From assembly GCA_013361685.1 (NCBI GenBank), contig JABFXP010000881.1, forward strand, positions 1-33,410: a stretch of 33,410 nt of DNA. Reading direction: 5' to 3'. A program made the translations under genes and the position numbers. Each line of letters starts with the position of its first letter. Position 1 is the first letter of the stretch. Of this stretch, positions 9,987-22,480 are shown in pieces. The DNA is from Catenulispora sp. Its GTDB lineage: Bacteria > Actinomycetota > Actinomycetes > Streptomycetales > Catenulisporaceae. The notes beneath the pieces were generated by a model, which saw nothing but the letters and a program-made list of their open reading frames with translations, had not been told where the DNA came from and did not search any database.

Positions 9987-10184
9987 TCAGGCGGCGGGGC
10001 GGGTGGTCTGGTGGACGAGCCAGGCGTCGAGGCGACTGCCGTGGCTTCCGGCCGAGAGACGGCGGCCGGTGGGGGTGTGGCAGGTTGTGCCGGCCTTGGC
10101 GCGGCAGGTGGGGACGGGGCAGGGGATGGCCCACTCGGGCGGCCGCTCGCGGTGGCGGAGGCCGGCAGGCATCGGGGCGCCCAT
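9987..10184 (-). CDS. 65-aa Cys/His zinc-finger-like protein
   Basis: ATG 10184 overlaps the stop of the helicase loader (TGATG). The sequence has the spacing CPVPTCRAKAGTTCHTPTG then a GSH-R segment, a C-x4-C-x5-G-x2-C-H arrangement. It recurs in many actinobacterial small proteins and C-terminal tails and probably binds zinc. The 395-aa track ORF is a shadow that merely ends in this gene. Coupling to the loader suggests an accessory role in replication or DNA handling. Confidence 0.65.
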   Translation of the reverse strand: MGAPMPAGLRHRERPPEWAIPCPVPTCRAKAGTTCHTPTGRRLSAGSHGSRLDAWLVHQTTRPAA

Positions 10185-10933
10185 CACGCGGCCCGGTGGC
10201 GGCGGCGGTCGTAGCCGGCCATGACGACGACGTCGGTCATCTCGGTGAGGCGGCTGACGATCCGGTCGCCAAGGACGATGTCGAGCCCGGGGCCGAGGAC
10301 CGCGCCGGTCTTCGGGTGGCGGGGCGCCTCGGTGGGGTAGTTCGAGGTGAAGATCGTCGGGCGGCAGGCGTTGTAACGCTCGTTGATCAGCCGGTAGGTG
10401 ATCTCCTCGACCCACTCGGAGGCCTTGGCGGAGCCGAGGTCGTCCAGCAGGAGGAGCGGGATGCGGGCGAGCCGGTTGAGGCCGGTCTCGGTGCCCGCGT
10501 CGGAGCCGCCGGGGCGGAGCCGGCCGTACATGTCGGCGGCGGTGGTGGCGATGATCTCGTACCGGGCTGGCCCGGCTTCGGCGATCATCCGCAGGGCGGC
10601 CCATGCCTGGTGGGTCTTGCCGGTGCCGGTGGTGCCGGTGAGAAGAAGGGACCGGGCCTCGGCCGGGTTGGCGGCGGCCTGCTCGGCCCAGGCGGCGACT
10701 GCGGGGTCGGTGACGATGCGGGCGTTGGCGTACCGGTTCGGGACGGCGTTGCCCCAGCGGGCGAGGGCGAACTCGGCGCGGGCGCGGTGGTGGTACTCGG
10801 GGTGGCCGGGCTGGTCGGGGCTGGGGGCGTCGTCGACGGTGCCGCGGTCGGGAAGGTCGAGGCCGCGGGCTTCGAGTCGGGCCTGGAGGGCGGCCATGGC
10901 GGCGGCGGGGTTCATGCGCTGGGGCTCGGGCAT
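10184..10933 (-). CDS. DnaC/IstB-like AAA+ helicase loader, 249 aa
   Basis: Walker A is GTTGTGKT (about residue 99), Walker B is LLLLDDLG, and the sensor motif reads IFTSNYPTEA. A C-terminal DRIVSRLTEMTDVV block supplies the usual arginine finger. The first 90 residues are variable, as expected for the part that contacts the helicase or initiator. Its role would be to load the host replicative helicase (DnaB) at the phage origin. The ATG at 10933 overlaps the stop of the replication initiator gene, which is the classic initiator-loader pair (as O-P or DnaD-DnaI). Confidence 0.9.
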   Translation of the reverse strand: MPEPQRMNPAAAMAALQARLEARGLDLPDRGTVDDAPSPDQPGHPEYHHRARAEFALARWGNAVPNRYANARIVTDPAVAAWAEQAAANPAEARSLLLTGTTGTGKTHQAWAALRMIAEAGPARYEIIATTAADMYGRLRPGGSDAGTETGLNRLARIPLLLLDDLGSAKASEWVEEITYRLINERYNACRPTIFTSNYPTEAPRHPKTGAVLGPGLDIVLGDRIVSRLTEMTDVVVMAGYDRRRHRAA

Positions 10934-11814
10934 CAGGAGGTCCAGCCGTTCTTGTACACGGACGGGTCGGGATTGGTGTAGGGCTGCCAGTCGCTGCCGG
11001 ACACGGCACGGAGCGGAGGCCGCTGGCCAACAGCGGTATCGGGCTCGTCGTCGTAGCAGCCCTTGTTGAGCCAGGTCGCCGGGTGCTTGGTGTACTGCGG
11101 GTCCTCGTTGGCGCGCTCGCGGGCGTAGGCGGTGGCGGCGTTGACGAGGTGCTGCGGATCGGCGCCGCGCTCAATGGCGGCGCACCACGCCTTCTTTGCT
11201 TCCTCGCGGGCCTTCTTCTTCGGGTAGACGAGCCAGAAGGCGCCGAACGCTTCGAGGTGGTGGTCGACCTTCGGCTTGGCTGGGGAAGGGGTAGCCGGGG
11301 CTCGGCCTTCGCTGCGGGAAGAGTCTTTATCTGTTGAGGGGTCTGAGGGGTATGAGGAGAAGGGGGTAGCCCCGGCTCCTTCTGAGTGAGCCGTGGCTCC
11401 TTCTGAATGAGCCCCTGCTCCCCCTTGCGGGCCTGAAGGGGTAGCCGTGGCTCCTTCTAGGGGTAGCCCCTGCTCCCCCTTGGCCCCGGAAGGGGTAGCC
11501 ACCGCTACCCCTTCGAAGGGCGGAACGAGGAACGTCATCCGAACACCGGGCACTGCGTACAGCGCTCGCCCGTCCTTGCCCTTGCCGATCGGGATTCGGA
11601 ACTCCCAGCCGGCCACGGCGAGCCGCTTGAGCGCGTTCCGCACGACGCTGGTGTCCTTCGCCCCGGTCCACCGGGCCAAGTCCTCCAGGGCGGCCCAGGA
11701 CTTGCGGGTCTCCTCGTTGGCGTCGTCCGCGATCTCCAGGGCCACGGCGCGCTGAAGCCCGGTCACCTGCGGGCCCAGGGCCTCCCGCAGTTGGCGTCGC
11801 AGCTCGTAGCCCAC
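10933..11814 (-). CDS. Phage replication initiator, winged-helix plus DnaD-like, 293 aa
   Basis: GTG 11814 (encoding MGYELRRQL) has GAAGAAGGA upstream. Residues 1-95 are a winged-helix domain (SWAALEDLARWTGAKDTSVV, then NALKRLAVAGWEF). Residues about 100-175 are a low-complexity Gly/Ala/Ser/Glu linker encoded by imperfect 21/33-bp repeats. The C-terminal part (FGAFWLVYPKKKAREEAKKA, then TKHPATWLNKGCYDD) is the common C-terminal module of phage replication proteins. It is paired with the downstream DnaC-like loader. By analogy with lambda O, the linker DNA is a candidate origin. A hairpin separates it from the clamp gene upstream. Confidence 0.8.
   Translation of the reverse strand: MGYELRRQLREALGPQVTGLQRAVALEIADDANEETRKSWAALEDLARWTGAKDTSVVRNALKRLAVAGWEFRIPIGKGKDGRALYAVPGVRMTFLVPPFEGVAVATPSGAKGEQGLPLEGATATPSGPQGGAGAHSEGATAHSEGAGATPFSSYPSDPSTDKDSSRSEGRAPATPSPAKPKVDHHLEAFGAFWLVYPKKKAREEAKKAWCAAIERGADPQHLVNAATAYARERANEDPQYTKHPATWLNKGCYDDEPDTAVGQRPPLRAVSGSDWQPYTNPDPSVYKNGWTS
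11374..11514. repeat. 21/33-bp repeat array in initiator gene, candidate replication origin
   Basis: Units starting GGCTCCTTCTGAGTGAGCC recur at 11374 and 11395 (21 bp each). A 33-bp unit at 11416, a 21-bp unit at 11449 and a 33-bp unit at 11471 follow. A perfect 11-bp inverted repeat (GAAGGGGTAGC / GCTACCCCTTC, 4-base loop) closes the array at 11489-11514. The relatively AT-richer stretch GAGTCTTTATCTGTTGAG (about 11320-11337) lies on the other side. The pattern is seen directly; origin function is inferred from the lambda O precedent. Confidence 0.55.
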
Positions 11815-11850: not shown

Positions 11851-11885
11851 GCCTGGGGCGGGGGCGGTGACACCCCGCCCCAGGC
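11851..11885 (-). terminator. Hairpin between sliding clamp and initiator genes
   Basis: A perfect 13-bp inverted repeat (GCCTGGGGCGGGG / CCCCGCCCCAGGC) with a 9-base loop, 14 bases past the clamp stop. It is probably a terminator or attenuator that partly insulates the initiator-loader unit from the coupled operon. Confidence 0.75.
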
Positions 11886-11898
11886 AGTCAGGCGGGCG

Positions 11899-12930
11899 TC
11901 AGCCCTGGGCGTTGGCCTGCTCGGCCGTCGCCTCGGCGCGCTTCCGGCGGCCTTCGATGTAGGTGTCGATCCAGGCCTGCGGGTCGTGTCCGAGCTGCTC
12001 GGCCTCGTCGAAGGCGGTCTCTGCGAAGTCACCGCCGTCCAGCTCGTCCGCGATGTCGGCGAGCGCGAGTTCGGTGGTGCGCGGGTCGATGACCCGCAGG
12101 ACCTGCAACAGCCGGTGCGCGATCCAGGCGTGCGACCCGGCCCGGCTGTGGGCGCCCATGGCGGCGTAGTCCGTACCGCCGATCACGTCGTACAGCTCCT
12201 GGGATGAGATGAGTACCTGCTTGAGGAGGTCTTCGGTCATCGTCGGCCCGTTGTCGTTCTCGGCCGACAGCGGCAGGTCAACGCCCGGTTCGACGGCGAA
12301 GCCGAGTGAGCCAGCCCATTCGGTGGTGAGGGCGGCCCTGGAGGGTGCCTCCCCGTGAACCTGCCGGATCGGCATCTGCATGCCGAGGAAGTCGGGGCCG
12401 GCCACGACGAACGGCGCCTCCGCCGAGGCCTGGGTGATCTGCAGGTGACGGCCGGCCTTCGCCCAGCGGTTCAGGTACTGCGTGTCGAGGCCGGAGATGT
12501 CGACCGTCTCGGCAGCGGGCTCCAGGTGCTTGTTGAACAGGGCCCGCCAGGGGGCGTGGGCGCCGCCCATGGTCGGCAGGACGATGCGGCCCATGTTGCT
12601 GACCGCAGTCATCTGCCCGGGGGTGACGGCCAGTTCGATGGTGTCGCGGTGGCTGTGCGCTTCGGCCCACGACTGCAGGTAGGTGACGTGCATGGCGCCG
12701 ACGGTGGCCGTCCACTCGTCGTCGCAGGACCGCAGGCGGCGGCGGGCGACAGCGAGGGTGTACCGGTCGGTGGTCACGGCGTGGAGGTAGGTGCCGTCGT
12801 TGTCGAAGTGGACGCTCGACAGGATCGGGGTGCTGCTCTGCGGCTTGGCCATGTGCGGCATGACCTGGTCGAGGGCCTCGGCGAGCTGGTGAGCGGGGAG
12901 GCTGGTCGTGGTGATGGCCACGGTGGTCAC
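11899..12930 (-). CDS. DNA polymerase III beta-subunit-like sliding clamp, 343 aa
   Basis: GTG 12930 follows a CAGGAG site and overlaps the upstream 49-aa gene. The N-terminal third shows a clear DnaN pattern: SSTPILSSVHFDNDGTYLHA, then VTTDRYTLAVAR. The rest is more divergent, with beta-alpha segments and the GRIVLPTMGG and GPDFLGMQMP blocks. The C-terminal extension is charged. At 343 aa it is slightly shorter than bacterial beta clamps. It would encircle DNA and tether polymerase or other partners at phage forks, or compete with the host clamp. It ends the long coupled operon and is followed by a strong hairpin. Confidence 0.75.
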   Translation of the reverse strand: MTTVAITTTSLPAHQLAEALDQVMPHMAKPQSSTPILSSVHFDNDGTYLHAVTTDRYTLAVARRRLRSCDDEWTATVGAMHVTYLQSWAEAHSHRDTIELAVTPGQMTAVSNMGRIVLPTMGGAHAPWRALFNKHLEPAAETVDISGLDTQYLNRWAKAGRHLQITQASAEAPFVVAGPDFLGMQMPIRQVHGEAPSRAALTTEWAGSLGFAVEPGVDLPLSAENDNGPTMTEDLLKQVLISSQELYDVIGGTDYAAMGAHSRAGSHAWIAHRLLQVLRVIDPRTTELALADIADELDGGDFAETAFDEAEQLGHDPQAWIDTYIEGRRKRAEATAEQANAQG

Positions 12931-13076
12931 GGCTTCTCCTGAGGGTCTGGTGGTTCGGGGTGTCCGGCCTGCGCGGCCGGGGTGTGGGCGGGGCAGCGCC
13001 AGTGGCCGGCCGGGTAGCGGCGGCTTGGCTGCCCGCAGTACCGCTGGTCTGCAGGCAGCCACTGGTCGCAGGTCAC
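12927..13076 (-). CDS. 49-aa Cys/His small protein (missed by ORF track)
   Basis: GTG 13076 overlaps the upstream stop (GTGA) and its own stop overlaps the clamp start. The product reads VTCDQWLPADQRYCG, then RRYPAGHWRCPAHTPAA, a C-x10-C-x12-C-x2-H pattern consistent with a zinc site. Similar short proteins accompany Streptomyces phage and ICE replication genes. It is too short for the ORF track, but coupling on both sides and intact Cys/His spacing support it. Function unknown. Confidence 0.65.
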   Translation of the reverse strand: MTCDQWLPADQRYCGQPSRRYPAGHWRCPAHTPAAQAGHPEPPDPQEKP

Positions 13077-21222: not shown

Positions 21223-21253
21223 CCACCCGTAGAACCAAACCGTGGGGAGCACC

Positions 21254-22480
21254 ATGCCTGGCTACATCGAAGACCGGTGGATGACCAAGCGCCCCGACCC
21301 CGTGACAGGCCAGAAGAAGCGCACCGAGCGCTACGGCAAGGGCAAGCGCTACCGCGTCTGCGGTATCCCCGGCGTCAAGGACGAGTCGTTCACCACCCTT
21401 GCCGATGCCAAGACTTGGCTGGCCACCGCACAGACCGACAGTCGCCGCGGCAGCTACATCGACCCGCGGATGGGTCAGATGACCCTTCGGATCTACATCG
21501 AGACCATCTGGTGGCCCGCCCGCCACGACCCGCTCACCACCGGCGGCCCGATGAAGTCCAAGATCTGGAACCACATCCTGCCCCACCTCGGCGAACTGCC
21601 CCTCGCCAGCATCGACTCCGAGCACCTTCGAGCGTGGCTCGCCACCCTCCGCCGCAAGGGCACCCTCAGCGAGTCGACCATCGAGGTCATCTGGACACAC
21701 CTCACCTCGATCCTGAAGACCGCCGTCGGCAAGCGGATCGCCAGGAACCCGTGCACCGAGATGGCCGACGAGCGCCCCTCGGGCAGTGGCAAGAGCAAGG
21801 CCCGCGCCTGGTCCAGGGAAGAAGTTGTCGGCCTACGGGAGGCGCTGCCCGACTGGTACAAGGTGTGCATCGACCTCGGGGTGAGTGCTGGCCTTCGCCA
21901 AGGTGAGGCCTTCGGGCTCAGCGCTGACGACATCGACGAGCAGCGTGACGTGATCCTCGTGCGCAGGCAGCTGCAGTGGGACTCCTCCAAGCCGTACTTC
22001 AAGCTGCCCAAGGGAGACAAGGAGCGGGAGATCCCGTTGTCGGCCGGCCTGCGCGATGCGATCCTCGCGCACAAGCGGCTGCGGGCGCCGACCGTGCACA
22101 CCCTGCCATGGCGGGGCCCCGGAAACGGGCAACGTCCGACGGCCACCGTGCCGCTCCTGGTCACCACCTGGTTCCGCAACCCGATTCATCACAGCCGTTT
22201 CAACCGGAACGCGTGGAAGCCGGCGTTGCACGCGATCGGTCTGATCTCCGCGCAGGACGAGGCGAACGATTCGTGGGAGCCGTCGCGCGAGCTGATGTTC
22301 CACCGCAACCGCCATACCTACGCGAGCGTCCAGTTGCGAGCTGGTGAGGACGTCGTCTCACTGTCACACTGGATGGGCCACTCCTCGCCCGACATCACGT
22401 TCAAGACGTACGCTCACTTCATGCCGGAGCGTGGGCGGCGCGGTCGGACGGCAGTCGACGCGTGGCTGAGCGGCCAATAG
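21254..22480 (+). CDS. int: Tyrosine-family site-specific integrase, 408 aa
   Basis: The start is ATG 21254 (MPGYIEDRWMTKR), with GGGGAG five bases upstream; the track GTG at 21242 is less likely. The N-terminus carries an arm-binding-type region and a SAM-like core-binding domain (TLSESTIEVIWTHLTSILKT). The catalytic domain has the first Arg in SAGLRQGEAFGLS, then HRNRHTYASVQ (His, Arg, His), HWMGHSS and the tyrosine in TYAHF. It lies immediately beside the probable attP at 22489-22901, with the transcript running toward it. Confidence 0.95.
   Translation: MPGYIEDRWMTKRPDPVTGQKKRTERYGKGKRYRVCGIPGVKDESFTTLADAKTWLATAQTDSRRGSYIDPRMGQMTLRIYIETIWWPARHDPLTTGGPMKSKIWNHILPHLGELPLASIDSEHLRAWLATLRRKGTLSESTIEVIWTHLTSILKTAVGKRIARNPCTEMADERPSGSGKSKARAWSREEVVGLREALPDWYKVCIDLGVSAGLRQGEAFGLSADDIDEQRDVILVRRQLQWDSSKPYFKLPKGDKEREIPLSAGLRDAILAHKRLRAPTVHTLPWRGPGNGQRPTATVPLLVTTWFRNPIHHSRFNRNAWKPALHAIGLISAQDEANDSWEPSRELMFHRNRHTYASVQLRAGEDVVSLSHWMGHSSPDITFKTYAHFMPERGRRGRTAVDAWLSGQ

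Follow-up and report, generated by a model that had tools for sequence, protein, structure and literature searches.

The replication block of the prophage

The window, that is, the whole stretch of 33,410 nucleotides that was analysed, is part of a 9.5-Mb actinobacterial assembly (contig C74) and holds a prophage, in which a PHROG profile search of ten proteins detected an integrase, an antirepressor and an exonuclease besides replication genes (Table 1). The product of the initiator gene matched the replication initiation protein phrog_270 (E=7.3e-27, residues 16-269), phrog_10293 over residues 185-257 and, more weakly, the O-like phrog_391 (E=1.3e-4); its sole Pfam match was PF13730 HTH_36 (E=0.0018, a score under its cut-off). 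AlphaFold2 predicted a disordered linker (residues 103-176) between two folded domains, the N-terminal one (residues 1-100) consisting of helices plus wing strands with pLDDT values mostly about 90. The protein sequence of the linker is repetitive and rich in Gly, Ala, Ser and Thr. A sequence search of solved structures with the initiator gave no matches, and in a fold search the winged-helix matches were weak, none of them at E<0.001; among these were 4pql, 4pt7 and 5kbj (E 0.6-2), which we take to be Rep/initiator winged-helix structures, those of plasmid RepA.

The helicase loader gene overlaps the stop of the initiator gene. The clamp-like protein encoded on the other side of the initiator gene was matched weakly by both PF02767 (E=0.0015) and the processivity factor phrog_947, and by TIGR00663 with a score (E=0.0015) far under the cut-off of that profile. 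Its best PHROG match is labelled as a RusA-like resolvase, a label that looks wrong. A perfect 13-bp inverted repeat, GCCTGGGGCGGGG/CCCCGCCCCAGGC (11851-11885 of the window), lies between the clamp-like gene and the initiator gene and resembles a terminator hairpin.

Table 1. Features of the prophage replication block and of the candidate origin (window coordinates).
Feature	Coordinates	Strand	Details
DnaC/IstB-like AAA+ helicase loader	10184-10933	-	phrog_50 E=2.8e-34; PF01695 E=3.3e-13
Replication initiator gene	10933-11814	-	293 aa; GTG start at 11814
C-terminal helical domain, presumed partner domain	11065-11256	-	residues 187-250; AlphaFold2 pLDDT mostly about 90
Outlying seventh site	11288-11307	-	GGCCGAGCCCCGGCTACCCC; far side of AT-richer tract
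AT-richer, C-skewed tract, candidate DNA unwinding element	11303-11362	-	3' of array on coding strand
Iteron 6	11363-11382	-	GAAGGAGCCGGGGCTACCCC
Iteron 5	11384-11403	-	GAAGGAGCCACGGCTCACTC
Iteron 4	11405-11424	-	GGGGGAGCAGGGGCTCATTC
Iteron 3	11438-11457	-	GAAGGAGCCACGGCTACCCC
Iteron 2	11460-11479	-	GGGGGAGCAGGGGCTACCCC; out of frame relative to other iterons
Iteron 1	11492-11511	-	GGGGTAGCGGTGGCTACCCC; core of perfect 11-bp inverted repeat
N-terminal winged-helix-like DNA-binding domain	11515-11814	-	residues 1-100; PF13730 HTH_36 and AlphaFold2
Divergent sliding-clamp-like protein, same replication block	11899-13062	-	weak profile matches
Integrase	21242-22480		PHROG match

Organization of the iteron array

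The coding strand of the linker DNA carries six clustered imperfect palindromes of about 20 bp and one outlier, for which the site consensus derived from relatives is GGGGTAGCC-AC-GGCTACCCC (9+2+9). The seven sites lie at gene offsets 303, 335, 357, 390, 411, 432 and 507, so that palindromes follow each other at 32, 22, 33, 21 and 21 bp, with 75 bp to the outlier. A sequence-only reading of this DNA had placed here an ordered array of 21, 21, 33, 21 and 33-bp units that ends in a perfect 11-bp inverted repeat and adjoins an AT-richer stretch. The array proved to be the top-scoring tandem repeat in the window (score 159; the runner-up, scoring 80, represents this array at a different period, and the next repeat scores 65), and the inverted repeat GAAGGGGTAGC/GCTACCCCTTC was found at 11489-11499/11504-11514. 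The 33/21/21 part of the unit series was retained, but the 33/21 at one end had to be corrected to 32/22.

The same reading had held that both protein frame and helical phase are kept. Since two identical 18-bp copies (11410-11427 and 11465-11482) stand 55 bp apart, iteron 2 is read in a different frame, and this out-of-frame second unit was retained in most close homologues, namely in most of the 20 class A genes examined (class A being genes with the same kind of N-domain as the window initiator). The protein frame is therefore not kept, which points to selection on the DNA. Helical phasing at about 21, 22, 32 and 33 bp does suit the array of the window and those of its close relatives; as a rule for the whole family it was rejected, because the wider family often shows spacings of 17-18, 24 and 30 bp as well.

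Repeats exceed chance and are conserved at synonymous sites

Plain counts of 14-mers or palindromes had little power in GC-rich coding DNA, several homologues not being significant, and for this reason a weighted score was adopted and compared with synonymous-codon shuffles in which protein and codon usage were held fixed. The palindromic-family score of the window gene was 16 against a shuffle mean of 7.9 and was reached by none of 60 shuffles; 17 homologues likewise exceeded their synonymous shuffles (0/60 each). By the cruder 14-mer count, the value observed for the window gene was reached in 1 of 100 shuffles. Using palindrome and direct-repeat tests, z values of at least 4 were obtained for 83 of 118 initiator genes versus none of 77 neighbouring control genes. 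After merging at 90% DNA identity, significant repeats (z>=4) were present in 59 of 89 non-redundant relatives, a clustered census that we prefer to an earlier one in which some contigs were counted twice; the other 30, mostly distant, were under the threshold. The named actinophage relatives Daredevil, Lilmac1015, CheeseTouch and ReT1v-1 had no significant palindromic array.

Alignment of homologous initiator genes had been proposed in the sequence-only reading as a check, and in this comparison the repeats were kept, with unusual conservation at synonymous sites. The mean entropy of four-fold degenerate third positions in class A was lower in the array (0.53) than in the N-domain (1.22; p=1.5e-8). 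Pairwise differences in class A averaged 0.23 in the array and 0.51 in the N-domain, the array being the less divergent region in 245 of the 249 pairs compared, a set of non-independent comparisons. In four homologues (L037, L052, L058 and L063), one site was present in all three reading frames. A search of the 9.5-Mb assembly for the iteron with at most one mismatch gave 5 matches, every one inside the array, while the reversed control gave 26. At this stringency no second site cluster was found in the host assembly, which may lack part of the element.

Two further genes of the comparison had peculiar frames. In Streptomyces tuirus (L062, 5001-5830) the initiator frame breaks within the array and the remainder lies in another frame, as a result of sequencing error, decay of the gene or repeat slippage. 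Arthrobacter phage RedFox gp46 (L077, 2501-3280) has three AACGGGGTGCCACGCT-like repeats spaced by 22 bp in three different reading frames; in the palindrome test these were not significant.

An AT-richer tract on one side of the array

The AT-richer stretch next to the array, described from the sequence alone, includes the GC minimum of the initiator gene (52% GC at 11320-11369), and a GC content as low as that of 11303-11362 occurred in 2% of synonymous shuffles of the window gene. Among relatives, the 60 bp located 3' of the arrays had a GC content of 0.523 versus 0.647 for the whole gene and were lower in 79 of 81 cases, a set that includes near-duplicate genes, so that its p-value is not literal. 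The 5' side of the arrays was not lowered (0.662). GC3 on the 3' side was 0.454 versus 0.718 in synonymous shuffles, with 71 of 83 genes at the 5% level. The AT-richness is thus found on the 3' side only and goes beyond what the amino acids explain.

The sequence AAAGACTCTTC or close variants of it occur just 3' of the array in L052, L058, L063, L045 and L009 and, on the coding strand, in the window (11303-11362). The genes with this element differ in their N-domain and have the same C-domain, and the version in L052 is the near-palindromic GAAGAAGACTCTTCTTC; the shared sequence may be a piece of the unwinding element or a joint left by recombination. In the AT-rich tracts of L102, L124, L143 and L148, GAACC-type motifs (e.g., GAACCATCA) recur about 11-17 bp apart, and these tracts (60 bp 3' of the arrays) are A/C-rich on the coding strand. 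GC skew was dropped as an origin marker for lack of specificity; the sign change falls near 13 kb and not at 11.3 kb, and gene content is a confounder of the skew.

Iterons accompany the N-terminal domain across initiators

The C-domain of the window type was found joined to other N-domains, and each of these had a repeat of its own. These repeats, identified by eye and by the palindrome search, were GTCACGGAC..GTCCGTGAC, GGTCCGGA..TCCGGACC, GGACGT-GG-ACGTCC, GGTCCCC..GGGGACC, GACGTACC..GGTACGTC and GGGTCCGG..CCGGACCC. In L015 and L017-L020, the window-type N-domain and iterons are combined with another C-domain, and a short gene comes next; the short gene after L015-L020 gave no Pfam match to a loader. 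L022 and L061 combine the same N-domain and iterons with a following DnaB-like helicase gene (Pfam-confirmed in L022, called by eye in L061) and have no separate loader. Streptomyces phage TurkishDelight gp71 has a class B N-domain and similar repeats of borderline score (2/60 shuffles), and its match ends before the C-domain. These comparisons indicated that the repeats follow the N-terminal DNA-binding domain, not the C-terminal domain.

Differences in the recognition helix were also compared with the iterons. In L009, VVRT replaces VVRN in the helix, and AACC/GGTT replaces AGCC/GGCT in nearly all iterons. L179 has VVRT too, with a mixed array that did not reach significance, and L013, with VVRD, shows a partial iteron change only. 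The link between recognition helix and iterons, resting mainly on L009, is suggestive only. A broader proposal, for which we consider the chances to be about even, is that in actinophage initiators a winged-helix domain together with the palindromic iterons that belong to it would form a swappable cassette across C-domains and helicase-loading systems, changes in the recognition helix being matched in the iterons (VVRN with AGCC/GGCT; VVRT, in L009, with AACC/GGTT). Of the points raised by the analysis, this cassette pairing across actinophages is of greatest interest.

A candidate origin inside the initiator gene

The sequence-only reading had interpreted the array as a lambda-style origin, and the comparison supports it through synonymous conservation, the presence of sites in several reading frames, their restriction to the array, the one-sided AT tract and the tracking of the N-domain. 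On this sequence evidence, the linker DNA inside the prophage initiator gene very probably constitutes a lambda-like phage replication origin. We infer iteron binding, tract opening, loader recruitment and origin activity as follows: the N-terminal winged-helix-like domain would bind the six clustered palindromic iterons, probably as dimers, and the resulting complex would strain and open the AT-richer tract. The C-terminal helical domain, tethered by the disordered, iteron-encoded linker, would recruit the neighbouring AAA+ loader, which in turn would load the replicative helicase onto the strand that has been opened.

Three other explanations were weighed. Palindromic winged-helix sites are typical of regulators, and an array bound inside the gene could block transcription, so the array might be an operator through which N-domain binding regulates the replication operon and does not start replication. 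The array may have an added regulatory role; as the explanation of the array, an operator has a slim chance of being right, since the sites lie within the gene and not at its promoter, no copies were found elsewhere in the assembly, and an origin is a better fit to the 4-7 copies, the one-sided AT-rich tract and the match to replication-initiation families. Centromeres, too, can be repeated palindromes, and domains are clearly exchanged at the array region, as would be expected if the array were a parS-like partition site or a recombination or module joint and not an origin. We regard this as even less probable: given the integrase, plasmid-like partition is not expected of the element, no partition gene was detected among the ten proteins scanned, and a joint alone leaves the N-domain-specific sites and the AT-rich tract unexplained.

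The least probable explanation is that the repeats are a feature of the protein, a flexible low-complexity linker that grew by slippage and whose DNA has no role. The predicted disorder and the repetitive composition of the linker agree with it, and duplication could account for some copies, but the same DNA is retained in different reading frames, synonymous sites are unusually conserved and the repeats surpass synonymous shuffles.

The origin reading would provide concrete candidates in many actinophages, a large group for which the literature found gives no description of origins; a search of the open-access literature gave no prior description of such actinophage arrays, which does not prove their absence from it. 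It would also offer naturally paired protein domains and DNA sites with which origin choice by initiators can be studied, and a practical sequence test for origins hidden in genes, namely sites in several reading frames together with unusual synonymous conservation.

Comparison with known systems

Among actinophage initiators, an origin near or within the initiator's own gene has been suggested for RepA-like mycobacteriophage prophages, upstream of or within repA, with no repeats identified (PMC7157519). The layout of candidate sites in the centre of the own initiator gene is shared with RepA_N plasmids such as pSK41 and pPR9. In pSK41, a winged-helix N-domain binds boxes located centrally in its rep gene; in the pSK41/pPR9 type the protein can dispense with the segment that the origin encodes, and a chimeric pPR9 rep with the N-domain exchanged for a pfam13730 HTH still replicates (PMC5703833). 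The C-domain is different, and a Pfam search of the initiator gave no match to RepA_N (PF06970) up to E=1.

In the Bacillus phage SPP1, the oriL repeats, to which the initiator binds, lie inside initiator gene 38, with an AT-rich unwinding element and the gp39 loader adjoining (PMC6316719). Repeats in the initiator gene, an AT-rich element and a loader next to the initiator are thus common to both systems. They differ in that the repeats of SPP1 are direct and that it has oriR as another origin elsewhere, while the prophage has palindromes in a single site cluster in the assembly.

In lambdoid origins, the middle of gene O contains an AT-rich tract and 4-6 iterons, which are imperfect inverted repeats with a length of about 19 bp (PMC7466680). 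The locus in the window resembles them in the position of the iterons between the N-terminal DNA-binding and C-terminal domains, in their palindromic form (20-bp units here), in the adjoining AT-rich tract, and in the order of initiator gene and loader gene. It differs in having six plus one GC-rich iterons as opposed to the four of lambda, and a loader that is AAA+ DnaC/IstB-like and not of the lambda P family; Phage_rep_O had no Pfam match in the initiator, whose likeness to O was limited to the weak phrog_391 match. Judged by these comparisons, the locus is outside those sequence families and, as a putative origin, is a new instance of the kind that includes lambda O, SPP1 gene 38 and pSK41 rep.
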